Source: Rugalucina vietnamica
Lineage: Eukaryota; Mollusca; Bivalvia; Lucinida; Lucinidae
Assembly (NCBI GenBank): GCA_964017185.1
Contig: OZ024874.1
Span: 35,812,721-35,876,720 of the forward strand
Direction of reading: 5' to 3'
Length of the DNA stretch: 64,000 nucleotides
Shown here piece after piece: positions 1-64,000 of the stretch. Under the pieces are notes generated by a model. It did no database searches and was not told the DNA's origin. It saw only the letters and a list, made by a program, of their open reading frames with translations. Made by a program: the position numbers and the translations under genes. The stretch's first letter is position 1, and every line of letters begins with the position of its first letter.

Positions 1-4
1 TTAT

Positions 5-462
5 AAACCCTAAATAAAATCCCAAAACCCTACGTTATTTGACCGAAGCCCTGATAGGGGTTTCCAGTAAATTAGACTGGAAATTTAATTTCTCCCCAAA
101 ATGGTCGGGGTTGACGCATTTTATGATTGATTCACAACCATTGGGCTAAACTCTTTTCAAACCCTGAATAAAATTCCAAAACCCTACGTGATTTGACCAA
201 AGCCCTGATAGGGAGGGGTTCAAATTATATCCAAGATCAAATCTCTCCCACAAAATGGTCGGGGTTGACGCATTTTATTATTGATTCACAACAATTGAGC
301 TAAACTCTTTTCAAACCCTAAATAAAATCCCCAAACCCTACGTGATTTGACCAAAGCCCTGATAGGGGTTTAGATTATATCGAAAACTAAATATCTCCCC
401 CAAAATGGTCGGGGTTGACGCATTTTATTATTGATTCACAACAATTGGGCTAAACTCTTTAT
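5..462. repeat. HOR4 trimer, first tandem copy
   Basis: This 458-bp trimer has three parts. Monomer A carries the diagnostic TTAGACTGGAAA. Monomer B carries CCCTGATAGGGAGGGG and TATCCAAGATC. Monomer C carries GGGGTTTAGATTATATCG. HOR4 is the version whose copy number varies: none in 3.85-kb units, one in 4.3-kb units, two here and in block 11, and an internally deleted copy in blocks 5 and 10. Confidence 0.9.
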
Positions 463-920
463 AAACCCTAAATAAAATCCCAAAACCCTACGTTATTTGA
501 CCGAAGCCCTGATAGGGGTTTCCAGTAAATTAGACTGGAAATTTAATTTCTCCCCAAAATGGTCGGGGTTGACGCATTTTATGATTGATTCACAACCATT
601 GGGCTAAACTCTTTTCAAACCCTGAATAAAATTCCAAAACCCTACGTGATTTGACCAAAGCCCTGATAGGGAGGGGTTCAAATTATATCCAAGATCAAAT
701 CTCTCCCACAAAATGGTCGGGGTTGACGCATTTTATTATTGATTCACAACAATTGAGCTAAACTCTTTTCAAACCCTAAATAAAATCCCCAAACCCTACG
801 TGATTTGACCAAAGCCCTGATAGGGGTTTAGATTATATCGAAAACTAAATATCTCCCCCAAAATGGTCGGGGTTGACGCATTTTATTATTGATTCACAAC
901 AATTGGGCTAAACTCTTTAC
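463..920. repeat. HOR4 trimer, second tandem copy
   Basis: An apparently identical tandem copy of the preceding 458-bp trimer. It includes the ATAAACCCTAAAT opening and the AGACTGG signature. Identity at exact HOR length points to a recent unequal exchange in register. Confidence 0.9.
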
Positions 921-1379
921 AAACCCTAATTAAAATCCCAAAACCCTACGTTATTTGACCGAAGCCCTGATAGGGGTTTCAAGTAAGTTAGATTGAAAAT
1001 TTTAATTTCTCCCCAAAATGGTCGGGGTTGACGCATTTTATGATTGATTCACAACCATTGGGCTAAACTCTTTTCAAACCCTGAATAAAATCCCCAAATT
1101 CTACGTGATTTGACCAAAGCCCTGATAGGGAGGGGGTCAAATTATATCGAAGATCAAATCTCTCCCACAAAATGGTCGGGGTTGACGCATTTTATTATTG
1201 ATTCACAACAATTGAGCTAAACTCCTTTCAAACCCCAAATAAAATCCCAAAACCCTACTTGATTTGACCAAAGCCCTGATAGGGGTTTAGATTATATCGA
1301 AAACTAAATCTCTCCCCCAAAATGGTCGGGGTTGACGCATTTTATTATTGATTCACAACAATTGGGCTAAACTCTTTAC
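921..1379. repeat. HOR5 trimer
   Basis: This 459-bp trimer opens with CCCTAATTAAAATCC. Its A monomer has AAGTAAGTTAGATTG, its B monomer has CCCCAAATTCTACG and GAGGGGGTC, and its C monomer has CCTACTTGATTTG. The C monomer here has AAATCTCTCC. The 3.85-kb units have AAATATCTCC at this site, so this base tags the two unit classes. Confidence 0.88.
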
Positions 1380-60260: not shown

Positions 60261-61774
60261 ACGAAATTATGTTAATTAATATATCTGAAAACAGTATATT
60301 GTTTGTGCGAACTAAATGGAACTATAGATTGAGTTCCCTTAAGAGCAATGAAAACAGTCTACGAACTGAAGTTACATACGGCATTATGCTTAGTGATATA
60401 TATATATGAACACATTGTGTTGTTCGTCAGAAATAAAGGAACACGCGAAATCTATATGAAAAAGCATATAAAGCTTGTCCGAACTAACGTTACATATGAA
60501 TTCGTGTTATCTAATATCAAAGATTAGCATCTCTGAATAGACCCCAACTGAGACAAGTTTTATCATTAATAATATAAAGGAGAACACAAAAGGAAAACAT
60601 GAAGAAAGAAAAAAATCAGGTCATAGCCGAGATGGGCAAGTTGTTTATCTTCGCACATCAGCTTACACCCTGACCCTAACCCTAACCCAAAAAATGCTAC
60701 GGCCCGTAGAGTCCATGGATGTTGCACAAGGCCCATATAGTCCATTGGATTGTATTGATTTTTTCTGAGTTCTGCGGCCCCTATAGTCCATGGATATTGC
60801 AAGTCCAATATAGTCCAATGAATTGCTAGGCATGAGAACCTTTGTTCTTTAACTTGCTCCTGGAAAACAGGTACTGCGAATGGAATACCGCTCTAAAAGC
60901 AATATTCTTAGAGGTCAATTTAGTCTTTACGTTCTGTTTTCATGTAACCAAAGACAACGCTCGTATACCAACCTGGGTCAGCCTGCATTAAGTCGAAAAT
61001 CAACATCTACCGCCAATATTATATCCATTGTACGATCAAATACACACAACTTACAAATGTTCACTTCTAGGGCTACTGATGAGGGCTCATTACCCGAAAT
61101 TGTGCAATATGGTCCATACTATCTCCCTTTGAATGATTTAACTACTTCCAAAGTGTCCAACCTTTATATTTTACTTACTTCTCTTGGAAGCACACACCAG
61201 TTAAGCATTGTCTTAAGCGTAGGCACATCTATACTGAAAAATCGTGGATGGCCACTCACTGTCAGCCGCGCAAAGTATGCTCAAATACAATGCTTGCTCA
61301 AATTTTGAATGACAAGCGAGATTGACGTCATAAGGGCTACATGTTGCCAGAAGATTGAAAGTGCGCACAATCAAACAAGGTGTGTTTCAAGCGCCTAACC
61401 TTAACCCTAACCCTACGTTACATACGAATTCATGTTATTTAATATTAAAGATTAGCATCTCTGAATGGACCCAAACTGAGACAAGGTTTATCACTGATAA
61501 TATAAAGGCGAACAAAAAAGGGGGGAAAAAGAAATAAAAAAAAAATGTAGAAAGAAAAGAATCAGATCATAACCAAGATGGGCTGGTTGCCCATCTTCGT
61601 ACATCAGCTTATACCCTAATCCTAACCCTAACCCTCTCTGAATAGACCCCAAATGGGACATGTTTTATCATTAATAATATAAAGGAGAACAAAAAAGAAC
61701 AAATGCAGAAATAAAAAAAAAATCAGATCATAACCAAGATGGGCAAGTTGCCCATCTTCGCACACCCGCTTATA
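60261..61774. repeat. Linker U15 (1514 bp)
   Basis: Common sequence. Open frame at 60880-61308. Confidence 0.93.
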
Positions 61775-61934
61775 CCCTAACCCTAACCCTAACCCTAACC
61801 CTAACCCAACCCTAACCCTAACCCTAACCCTATCCCTAACGCTAACCTAACCCTAACCCTAACCCTAACCCTAACCCTCTCCCTAACCCTAACCCTAACT
61901 CTAACCCTAACCCTAACCCTAACCCTAAACCTAA
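61775..61934 (-). repeat. Interstitial telomeric tract U15 (160 bp)
   Basis: Same shortened tract as U14. Confidence 0.96.
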
Positions 61935-64000
61935 GCCCTGATAGGGGTTTCAAGTAAATCAGATTGAAAATTTTAATTTCTCCCCAAAATGGTCGGGGTT
62001 GACGCATTTTATGATTGATTCACAACAATTGGGCTAAACTCTTTTCAAACCCTGAATAAAATCCCAAAACCCTACGTGATTTGACCAAAGCCCTGATAGG
62101 GAGGGGTTCAAATTATATCGAAGATCAAATCTCTCCCACAAAATGGTCGGGGTTGACGCATTTTATTATTGATTCACAACAATTGAGCTTAACTCTTTTC
62201 AAACCCTAAATAAAATCCCAAAACCCTACGTGATTTGACCAAAGCCCTGATAGGGGTTTAGATCATATCGAAAACTAAATATCTCCCCCAAAATGGTCGG
62301 GGTTGACGCATTTTATTATTGATTCACAACAATTGGGCTAAACTCTTTTCAAACCCTAAATAAAATCCCAAAACCCTACGTTATTTGACCGAAGCCCTGA
62401 TAGGGGTTTCAAGAAAATTAGATTGAAAATTTAATTTCTCCCCAAAATGGTCGGGGTTGACGCATTTTATGATTGATTCACAACAATTGGGCTAAACTCT
62501 TTTCAAACCCTGAATAAAATCCCAAAATCCTACGTGATTTGACCAATGCCCTGATAGGGAGGATTTCAAATTATATCGAAGATCAAATCTCTCCCACAAA
62601 ATGGTCGGGGTTGACTCATTTTATTATTGATTCACAACAGTTGAGCTAAACTCTTTTCAAACCTTTAATAAAATCCCAAAACCCTACGTGATTTGACCAA
62701 AGCCCTGGTAGGGGTTTAGATTATATCGAAAACTAAATATCTCCCCCAAAATGGTCGGGGTTGACGCATTTTATTATTGATTCACAACAATTGGGCTAAA
62801 CTCTTTACAAACCCTAAATAAAATACCAAAACCCTACGTTATTTGACCGAAGCCCTGATAGGGGTTTCCAGTAAATTAGATTGAAAATTTAATTTCTCCC
62901 CAAAATGGTCGGGGTTGACGCATTTTATGATTGATTCACAACCATTGGGCTAAACTCTTTTCAAACCCTGAATAAAATCCACAAACCCTACGTGATTTGA
63001 CCAAAGCCCTGATAGGGAGGGGTTCAAATTATATCCAAGATCAAATCTCTCCCACAAAATGGTCGGGGTTGACGCATTTTATTATTGATTCACAACAATT
63101 GAGCTAAACTCTTTTCAAACCCTAAATAAAATCCCCAAACCCTACGTGATTTGACCAAAGCCCTGATAGGGGTTTAGATTATATCGAAAACTAAATATCT
63201 CCCCCAAAATGGTCGGGGTTGACGCATTTTATTATTGATTCACAACAATTGGGCTAAACTCTTTATAAACCCTAAATAAAATCCCAAAACCCTACGTTAT
63301 TTGACCGAAGCCCTGATAGGGGTTTCCAGTAAATTAGACTGGAAATTTAATTTCTCCCCAAAATGGTCGGGGTTGACGCATTTTATGATTGATTCACAAC
63401 CATTGGGCTAAACTCTTTTCAAACCCTGAATAAAATTCCAAAACCCTACGTGATTTGACCAAAGCCCTGATAGGGAGGGGTTCAAATTATATCCAAGATC
63501 AAATCTCTCCCACAAAATGGTCGGGGTTGACGCATTTTATTATTGATTCACAACAATTGAGCTAAACTCTTTTCAAACCCTAAATAAAATCCCCAAACCC
63601 TACGTGATTTGACCAAAGCCCTGATAGGGGTTTAGATTATATCGAAAACTAAATATCTCCCCCAAAATGGTCGGGGTTGACGCATTTTATTATTGATTCA
63701 CAACAATTGGGCTAAACTCTTTACAAACCCTAATTAAAATCCCAAAACCCTACGTTATTTGACCGAAGCCCTGATAGGGGTTTCAAGTAAGTTAGATTGA
63801 AAATTTTAATTTCTCCCCAAAATGGTCGGGGTTGACGCATTTTATGATTGATTCACAACCATTGGGCTAAACTCTTTTCAAACCCTGAATAAAATCCCCA
63901 AATTCTACGTGATTTGACCAAAGCCCTGATAGGGAGGGGGTCAAATTATATCGAAGATCAAATCTCTCCCACAAAATGGTCGGGGTTGACGCATTTTATT
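61935..64000. repeat. Satellite block 16 (partial, right edge)
   Basis: Begins with truncated HOR1, then HOR2, HOR3 (AAATCCACAAACC), HOR4 and part of HOR5. The window ends inside the B monomer of HOR5, just after its core. It lacks the private changes of blocks 14 and 15, which bounds their local homogenisation. Confidence 0.95.

Follow-up and report, generated by a model that had tools for sequence, protein, structure and literature searches.

Yeast Y′ elements are tandem and subtelomeric, with telomere tracts between copies; they encode a helicase and have no satellite. The C. elegans TALT1 block measures 1,464 bp and, in the portion of the account available, lies between two interstitial telomere tracts of the same orientation (PMC4595603), and five to six copies of it stand in tandem in wild strains (PMC9066243). 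For Magnaporthe, the accessible part of one paper explains MoTeR arrays with identical tract lengths through extension of a D-loop, with internal sequence as a possible template (PMC7367193). The locus described here, a 64-kb window (the whole stretch of DNA that was analysed), resembles these systems in its telomere-bounded cassettes and adds to them a satellite.

Organization of the array

The window is a head-to-tail array in which 15 linkers each lead into a CCCTAA array and then into 14–20 satellite monomers. All five levels named in the original prediction (hexamer, monomer, trimer, unit, and superunit) were found in it. At the lowest, 15 CCCTAA arrays of 163–182 bp, one per linker, share one orientation; at the second, the anchor occurs at 252 sites and delimits 236 complete monomers of 149–156 bp, measured anchor to anchor, which at the third level follow an A-B-C trimer of ~458 bp. 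The 15 linker starts give 14 complete units of 3846–4755 bp, the 15th being cut by the window end, and at the highest level U1–U4 (16,142 bp) recurs as U5–U9 (20,445 bp, with one extra unit). A 16–20-kb repeat exists as predicted, but in two copies only (1737–38323) and not throughout the window, U10–U15 being without a repeat of the superunit. Because the periodicities are exact enough, chance is no serious rival for the nested array, and assembly error is a serious rival for the superunit level only. The units are as follows.

1..1736, + strand: U0 tail, truncated by the window start and made up of satellite alone, with 10 complete anchor-to-anchor monomers
1737..5583, + strand: U1, 3847 bp; linker 1737–3251, CCCTAA array 3252–3433, satellite 3434–5583
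5584..9886, + strand: U2, 4303 bp; linker 5584–7098, CCCTAA array 7099–7279, satellite 7280–9886
9887..13732, + strand: U3, 3846 bp; linker, array 11401–11582, satellite
13733..17878, + strand: U4, 4146 bp; linker, array 15247–15421, satellite
17879..21725, + strand: U5, 3847 bp; array 19394–19575; recombinant linker
21726..26028, + strand: U6, 4303 bp; array 23241–23421; letter-identical to U2
26029..30331, + strand: U7, 4303 bp; array 27544–27724; recombinant linker
30332..34177, + strand: U8, 3846 bp; array 31846–32027; letter-identical to U3
34178..38323, + strand: U9, 4146 bp; array 35692–35866; letter-identical to U4
38324..43078, + strand: U10, 4755 bp, the longest unit, with extra trimer copies; array 39839–40013
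43079..47379, + strand: U11, 4301 bp; array 44592–44772
47380..51682, + strand: U12, 4303 bp; array 48893–49074
51683..55972, + strand: U13, 4290 bp; array 53197–53365
55973..60256, + strand: U14, 4284 bp; array 57487–57649
60257..64000, + strand: U15; array 61771–61933; cut by the window end
1737..17878, + strand: superunit copy 1 (U1–U4), 16,142 bp
17879..38323, + strand: superunit copy 2 (U5–U9), 20,445 bp, enlarged by one further U2-like unit

Divergence is layered: the blocks within a linker are ~80% identical, monomers 87% out of phase and 95.5% in phase (U2), and linkers at least 99.7%. Multimer copies are more alike than the monomers inside a multimer, as in a higher-order repeat; among the 17 monomers of U2, same-phase identity is 95.5% versus 87.2% out of phase, and over all units monomer similarity is 0.900 at lag 1 (n = 220) and 0.962 at lag 3 (n = 188). 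Only 26 distinct monomers occur among the 236. The same five monomer positions open each of the 15 units, one position existing in two forms, and the last two monomers are common to the U0 tail and the 14 complete units, while the number of trimers between these ends varies. Both satellite junctions fall at the same monomer position and share GC(C)CTGATAGGGG; across the U2 linker the trimer phase breaks, a C-phase start being cut on the left and an A monomer opening on the right.

Anatomy of the linker and its telomere tracts

A further level, absent from the original prediction, is the presence within every linker of three blocks that end on telomere tracts. U2 serves as the reference unit for these sub-parts.

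5814..6018, + strand: block T1; right end is a short CCCTAA tract, 5993–6015
6019..6720, + strand: middle segment M, with CCCTAA tracts on either side
6721..6742, + strand: short CCCTAA tract between M and T2
6743..6962, + strand: block T2; left end adjoins a CCCTAA tract, right end is the tract 6937–6962
6963..7098, + strand: block T3; left end adjoins the tract 6937–6962, right end meets the long CCCTAA array
7099..7279, + strand: long CCCTAA array, with ordered defective hexamers common to all 15 units

The three blocks are related (T1–T2, 80.0%; T1–T3, 82.1%; T2–T3, 77.6% identity) and have a common right end on a CCCTAA tract. The left ends of T2 and T3 both lie on tracts and differ, that of T3 being further in; T1 has no tract on its left side and is continuous with the rest of the linker. 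The three copies show the common 3′ end on a tract and the variable 5′ truncation expected of a telomere-attached retroelement, T1 not being truncated at a tract. At the shared 3′ end, an inverted repeat stands beside the CCCTAA. In T1, three C-to-T differences leave this hairpin paired in + strand RNA only, and in T2 and T3 both strands can form it, the − strand folding being slightly more stable. No protein domain was recognised in the frame scanned of segment M. The blocks look like a fossil record of chromosome-end additions, left by retroelement attachment or by break-induced copying.

There are four CCCTAA tracts per unit in a single orientation, and in 15 of 15 linkers the long array and the short tracts lie on the same strand, as at the unit borders of TALT and Y′-type arrays. 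The long arrays vary in length by a few hexamers among units (163–182 bp), and all 15 contain the same defective hexamers in the same order. Because these ordered defects are shared, the 15 arrays are copies of one founder and were copied as passengers; independent telomerase seeding of each unit is rejected on the same grounds. Neither a terminal telomere array nor a unique flank lies within the 64-kb window, whose distal side, judged by strand, is the left.

Coding potential and relatives

The linker holds 12 stop-to-stop frames of at least 50 aa, the longest of 151 aa, and positions 1–9000 hold nine ORFs of at least 60 aa, the longest of 142 aa. No Pfam match was found for the two linker ORFs scanned; reverse transcriptase coding sequence was sought in these two ORFs and a Y′-type helicase ORF among frames up to the lengths just given, and neither was found. 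In Rfam, no family reached the gathering score over 1–9000, and 5584–7800 gave just three sub-threshold matches (E 2.2–2.8), with no hammerhead among them. Exact matches were found neither to a satellite 27-mer in viral_contigs or genome_contigs nor to a T-block 26-mer in viral_contigs, and the U2 linker gave no match in the plasmids or phages collections; six stretches of viral_contigs fit a pattern for the 151-aa frame, none of them confirmed as a relative. Since the collections searched are viral, plasmid, and prokaryotic, a eukaryotic host would not be expected among them. A satellite 15-mer does not occur in the literature searched.

Recent duplications

Apart from one added unit and two linkers of recombinant make-up, the superunit copies match letter for letter; they share exact repeats of 13,204 and 9,374 bp, and U5–U9 has zero private differences over 20,445 bp. 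In the U5 linker, a U10-like 5′ part gives way to a U1-like remainder at unit position 242–1151, supported by two sites of each type. Taking all other complete units as possible parents gives one perfect two-parent mosaic, U10 then U1, as a tandem duplication of U1–U4 would predict. The U7 linker passes from a U3-like 5′ part, marked by one U3-like site, to a U2-like remainder at unit position 242–1466, a mosaic that fits U3 (or U8, U1) then U2 (or U6). U1 is also writable as a mosaic of U3, U7, or U8 and then U5. U10, U11, and U12 have private variants, and no perfect mosaic accounts for these units; mismatch counts of U10 against other units are left out as probably inflated, the alignment spanning differing trimer numbers. 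U13 and U14 differ solely by 6 bp of CCCTAA array length. Both youngest duplications, which provide the two resolvable breakpoints, broke inside the non-telomeric linker and not in a telomere tract, a placement that fits a template jump or unequal exchange, not growth primed by telomeres. A single-unit rolling circle as the only source is set aside for the latest events, since a four-unit block was duplicated.

Origin of the array

An active end-maintenance cassette of the C. elegans TALT or yeast Y′ type, by which an end invades internal tracts and copies cassettes outward, has in its favor the tandem cassettes with telomere tracts of a single orientation at their borders, the difference of a few hexamers in array length between units, and the precedent of TALT1 in its structure and copy number. 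It is nevertheless very improbable here, given the same ordered variants kept in the arrays and the position of both resolvable breakpoints in linker. In the part of the Magnaporthe account available, which then turns to an alternative, amplification from internal sequence is suggested by identical interstitial tract lengths, since invasion by bare telomere ends could occur in any register (PMC7367193). It is unlikely that the linker is the graveyard of a telomere-attaching retroelement, with T1–T3 as its 3′ ends, T2 and T3 truncated 5′ at different points, and docking on the G-rich overhang via the CCCTAA-bearing 3′ end. This would explain the common 3′ end with its inverted repeat beside CCCTAA, the varying 5′ ends, of which two out of the three abut a telomere tract, and the preservation of hairpin pairing in + strand RNA only by the three T1 differences; the polarity is as in FoTeRs, whose 3′ ends are followed by 3–7 TAACCC copies in the available part of the report (PMC12857005), and endonuclease-deficient Penelope-like elements gain telomere repeats at truncated 5′ ends, as stated in the accessible part of another (PMC3846280). 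However, there are three blocks only, with no relatives found; the two linker frames scanned gave no Pfam match and the Rfam matches no hammerhead; T2 and T3 form the hairpin on both strands, slightly more stably on the − strand; and break-induced copying from a telomere tract also predicts far ends that vary while the tract-side end stays constant. It is distinctly unlikely that the linker keeps successive dockings of a telomere-attaching retroelement, small and non-coding, that primes on the overhang with its 3′ hairpin and CCCTAA tail, and that its relics, once fused to the higher-order satellite, turned into an end cassette able to spread itself; were docking true, this would be a chromosome-end hybrid, at once retroelement-capped, satellite-capped, and recombination-amplified.

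Alternatively, a chromosome-internal satellite, unrelated to any present chromosome end, may have captured an interstitial telomere segment once. One founding array would then account for all 15, and both junctions, at one monomer position with the shared letters given above, look like an insertion with a short target duplication; potato centromeres are mentioned with telomere-similar sequences in the available part of one source (PMC3276127). We hold such a capture doubtful: four same-orientation tracts with intervening blocks point to repeated end events before capture, and the trimer phase is broken across the U2 linker. The letters common to both junctions also raised the idea of a simple insertion of linker and telomere into an existing trimer array, which the phase break weakens; insertion before the trimer arose is possible. 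At the superunit level only (U5–U9), the assembler may have taken the same repeat path twice, a somewhat unlikely artefact. The superunit could be such a loop because its 20.4 kb lack a private mutation; exact repeats reach 13,204 bp, the junctions fall inside linkers that are otherwise nearly identical, and the crossover signature without private mutations would also be expected from looping through a collapsed repeat. Yet a very recent duplication accounts for the same data, and the near-identical U10, U11, and U12, with private variants and no perfect mosaic, were kept apart by the assembler.

We consider it somewhat probable that this is a subterminal-type cassette array shaped by end additions, fusion to satellite, whole-unit copying, and recent linker-based duplications. 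A CCCTAA tract would first have capped a satellite at a chromosome end; short blocks, each with new telomere repeats after it, may then have been added serially, leaving T3, T2, M, and T1. This order is drawn from three blocks of a single ancestral linker, of which T1 is without a left tract. The other side of this telomere-bounded segment presumably joined the same satellite, at the junctions seen today, to give the unit of linker, tract, and satellite. As the shared variants show, the whole unit was then copied to at least 15 copies with the telomere tract as passenger. Lastly, a template jump from linker to linker, or else unequal homologous exchange there, probably generated the youngest copies at the breakpoints observed, with a four-unit and a one-unit duplication and shifts in satellite trimer number within units.

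The end origin that the original prediction proposed is supported in part, by the four same-orientation tracts per unit and by blocks with a common tract-side end, two of whose three other ends lie on a further tract, a pattern such as serial chromosome-end additions leave. Two observations speak against telomere maintenance today: degenerate hexamers are shared among the 15 arrays, and the two youngest breakpoints lie in non-telomeric linker. The array bears no sign of current maintenance. It may record chromosome-end growth by copying. Most likely it has no function beyond spread by homologous recombination, and a putative buffering role at a chromosome end is possible. If the array is terminal, one contig records both the end additions that leave telomere-bounded blocks and the subsequent homology-driven spread of block and satellite, two phases often treated separately. 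Shared defective hexamers and recombinant linkers make the copying route and order readable, so that other ends and related individuals offer a test of how far telomere-tract invasion and internal-sequence exchange each contribute.

Comparison with known systems

Like yeast Y′, the window consists of tandem elements separated by telomere tracts; unlike Y′, it shows no helicase gene among the open frames of 1–9000 and the linker. The TALT1 arrays of C. elegans strains CB4856 and DL226 likewise have tandem cassettes with short telomere tracts between them and one copy duplicated in place through homology, but TALT1 is a unique genic block for which the available text describes no satellite (PMC9066243; PMC4595603), whereas the window cassette has one; homology of telomere repeats is supposed there, whereas the breakpoints here are in linker, and the worm probe repeat is TTAGGC. 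Mouse mTALT is similarly a head-to-tail subtelomeric block with flanking telomere repeats in a uniform direction, but it is ~7.4 kb long and was shown at ALT-cell telomeres, with no satellite array described in the part of the report available (PMC7889907). The Magnaporthe MoTeR arrays share tandem elements with interstitial telomere tracts, according to the accessible part of their description (PMC7367193); MoTeRs are retrotransposons, whereas the window has no recognised coding element and its tract lengths differ by a few hexamers. We found no description of the same combination of features in the titles and abstract openings of the papers listed, which is not proof that it is unpublished. 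The Pan subterminal caps (pCht satellite with SD spacer) also have, at chromosome ends, a satellite interrupted by a recurring, single-origin non-satellite spacer, but their satellite is of 32 bp, their spacers have a modal length of 32 kb and occur every 287 kb on average, and the available part of the source describes no telomere tract per unit (PMC12926204). The novelty of the locus is moderate: it is a satellite-containing version of known telomere-bounded cassette arrays.

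Organization of the array

Each unit of the array comprises a linker of 1.5 kb, present in 15 copies in the window and 99.7-100% identical to the linker of U2 by BLAST; next in order come a CCCTAA array of 163-182 bp and satellite. Fourteen units (U1-U14) are complete and U15 is cut by the window end, while the satellite upstream of the first linker is part of U0, itself a cut unit; the unit register begins a few bases within the satellite motif GATAGGGG.

Units and superunits on the forward strand, with unit lengths in order
1737-17878, U1-U4, superunit
17879-38323, U5-U9, recurrence of the superunit with one extra U2-like unit
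38324-43078, U10
U1-U7: 3847, 4303, 3846, 4146, 3847, 4303, 4303 bp
U8-U14: 3846, 4146, 4755, 4301, 4303, 4290, 4284 bp

The nested array of the original prediction is confirmed, with the reservation that its highest level, the superunit, occurs in two copies only and is possibly a product of assembly. U10 forms the boundary where the duplicated left part gives way to the right part; no other unit is as long, and it contains extra trimers (A-B-C sets of satellite monomers, ~458 bp) and, in its linker, a private substitution at alignment column 1152. Private variants are present in U11 and U12 as well. GC skew is below zero in all 1-kb bins of 1-64000, most negative in those holding the telomere array and the adjoining satellite.

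Telomere arrays and satellite

Compared as token strings, the CCCTAA arrays contain the same imperfect units in the same order in 15 of 15 cases: CCCAA, CCCTAT, CGCTAA then CCTAA, CCCTCT, CTCTAA and a final ACCTAA. Because this list is common to all, the 15 arrays are copies of one founder. They differ by a few whole hexamers, that of U11 has one further variant, and five (U1, U3, U5, U8 and U12) start with an extra C. Independent telomerase additions in each unit were rejected as a source, since they would not reproduce such ordered imperfect units.

The satellite holds 252 anchor sites; 236 monomers are complete from anchor to anchor, each of 149-156 bp, with 26 distinct sequences among them. 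Across all units, monomer similarity is 0.900 at lag 1 (n = 220) and 0.962 at lag 3 (n = 188); three phases are distinguished among the 17 monomers of U2, with 95.5% identity in phase versus 87.2% out of phase, the final monomer ahead of the next linker fitting every phase poorly. Units vary chiefly in the count of middle trimers. The opening monomer types are common to all 15 units, the third type existing in two forms, and the last two monomers are shared by U1-U14 and also by the tail of U0.

At the left junction, CGCTGATAGGGG precedes the linker, the same in 15 of 15 over 75 bases bar one substitution before U12; at the right junction, all 15 units read ACCTA then AGCCCTGATAGGGG. The motif common to both junctions may represent a short target duplication or a recombination seam, and in U2 the trimer phase breaks across the linker. 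Both satellite-linker junctions are located at the monomer start, where (AAA)GCCCTGATAGGG(GTTT), for example at ~7280, forms an imperfect palindrome whose arms are CCCT and AGGG; in phase B monomers the sequence after AGGG varies. In the trimer at 7281-7739, the telomere-like motifs ACCCTA and CCCTRA occur 5 times (0.16 expected) and 6 times (0.47 expected), respectively, counts reached for either motif by 0 of 2000 dinucleotide shuffles, the true excess being smaller given that the three monomers are not independent.

Linker blocks and the origin of the cassette

The linker includes three related blocks, T1, T2 and T3, with identities of 80.0% for T1-T2 (220 columns), 82.1% for T1-T3 (184) and 77.6% for T2-T3 (196); a pattern search recovered 14, 15 and 15 copies of the T1, T2 and T3 types, respectively. 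All three share a right end at a CCCTAA tract. On the left, T2 ends directly at a tract, T3 ends also directly at a tract but ~43 columns further in than T2, and T1 is without one; the middle segment, M, has a tract on either side, and all linker tracts are oriented as in the long array. If left is distal, as on an end strand starting CCCTAA, this layout would be expected from repeated end additions.

Under both retroelement 3′-end attachment and break-induced copying from a telomere tract, the end beside the tract would be fixed and the far ends would vary, so the blocks alone cannot separate the two routes. Every block has an inverted repeat next to its tract, which in T3 comprises 11-bp arms around one base, with 10 pairs folded. 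In T2 and T3 the hairpin forms on both strands, with slightly greater stability on the minus strand (minus strand -18.6 and -18.7, plus strand -16.5 and -15.8 kcal/mol). T1 carries three adjacent C-to-T differences, through which plus-strand RNA stays paired by G-U pairs; its plus strand keeps the hairpin (-8.6 kcal/mol) and its minus strand adopts another fold (-6.5). For three blocks, this modelled pairing gives a mere hint of an RNA step. The proposed chromosome-end origin is supported for the cassette, but present telomere maintenance is not. The finding would gain interest if the array proved terminal and further chromosome ends carried the T-blocks too.

The linker also contains a 151-aa open frame at 6180-6635 (142 aa from ATG). 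A Pfam search with the 142-aa ORF returned no family, comparison of the 151-aa frame with viral contigs gave no confirmed relative, and its conservation is uninformative, the linkers being nearly identical. M has an internal duplication (6024-6079 and 6099-6152, 82% identical over 56 columns).

The superunit: duplication or assembly

Three pairs of units are identical, U2 and U6 (4303 bp), U3 and U8 (3846 bp) and U4 and U9 (4146 bp), whereas two sites distinguish U1 from U5 and a single site distinguishes U2 from U7; exact repeats extend to 13,204 bp. Each of the 14 complete units was tested for identity to a mosaic of two others from this set, with a prefix of one fused to a suffix of the second; U15, truncated at the window end, was left out. 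For U5 the sole solution is U10 followed by U1, switching at unit position 242-1151, which is the pair expected if U1-U4 had been duplicated by exchange between the U1 linker and the linker after U4. U7 is solved by U3, U8 or U1 followed by U2 or U6, switching within 242-1466, and this pattern would fit a further one-unit duplication. These calls rest on few sites: in U5, linker columns 196 and 242 are U10-like versus U1-like 1354 and 1521, and in U7, column 242 is U3-like versus U2-like 1458 and 1521. Many solutions exist for U2, U3, U4, U6, U8 and U9, because each has an identical twin; the three for U1 (U3, U7 or U8, then U5) are superfluous to the duplication model, each of U13 and U14 is explained by the other solely through a hexamer length change, and U10, U11 and U12 have none among the other complete units.

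The pattern fits two unequal exchanges of very recent date, or repair template jumps, within the linker. An assembly path that traverses one repeat twice fits as well. Every difference in U5-U9 (20,445 bp) is accounted for by U1-U4 and U10, which makes the superunit the level of the array that is least secure. The odds of the rival readings overlap, as the retroelement and assembly explanations each concern single steps or levels and are not mutually exclusive.

Comparison with known systems

TTAGGG telomeres are present in many groups. Sequence searches of viral, prokaryotic, plasmid and phage collections returned no confirmed match. Going by the available portions of the sources, TTAGGG telomeres occur among plants in part of the Asparagales (PMC9498494), and in C. 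elegans TALT1 is a 1,464-bp block flanked by two interstitial tracts of the same orientation (PMC4595603). Wild C. elegans strains carry tandem arrays of five or six TALT1 copies, one of which arose by duplication in place (PMC9066243). Excerpted accounts describe mouse mTALT as head-to-tail with telomere repeats all in one direction (PMC7889907), FoTeR 3′ ends as followed by 3-7 TAACCC copies (PMC12857005), and endonuclease-deficient Penelope-like elements as having telomere repeats added to truncated 5′ ends (PMC3846280). In similarly partial texts, Pan subterminal caps contain both satellite and a spacer that recurs and has a single origin (PMC12926204), and potato satellites are directly joined to telomere repeats at differing monomer positions (PMC3276127). 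The combination, within one unit, of a satellite higher-order repeat, a telomere tract and a block-built linker is not described in the portions of these sources compared. The closest match to the behaviour of the array, within the same limits of the source, is offered by the Magnaporthe MoTeR arrays, in which interstitial tracts of equal length are attributed to D-loop extension and internal sequence is proposed as the starting end (PMC7367193), although tract lengths here differ by a few hexamers.
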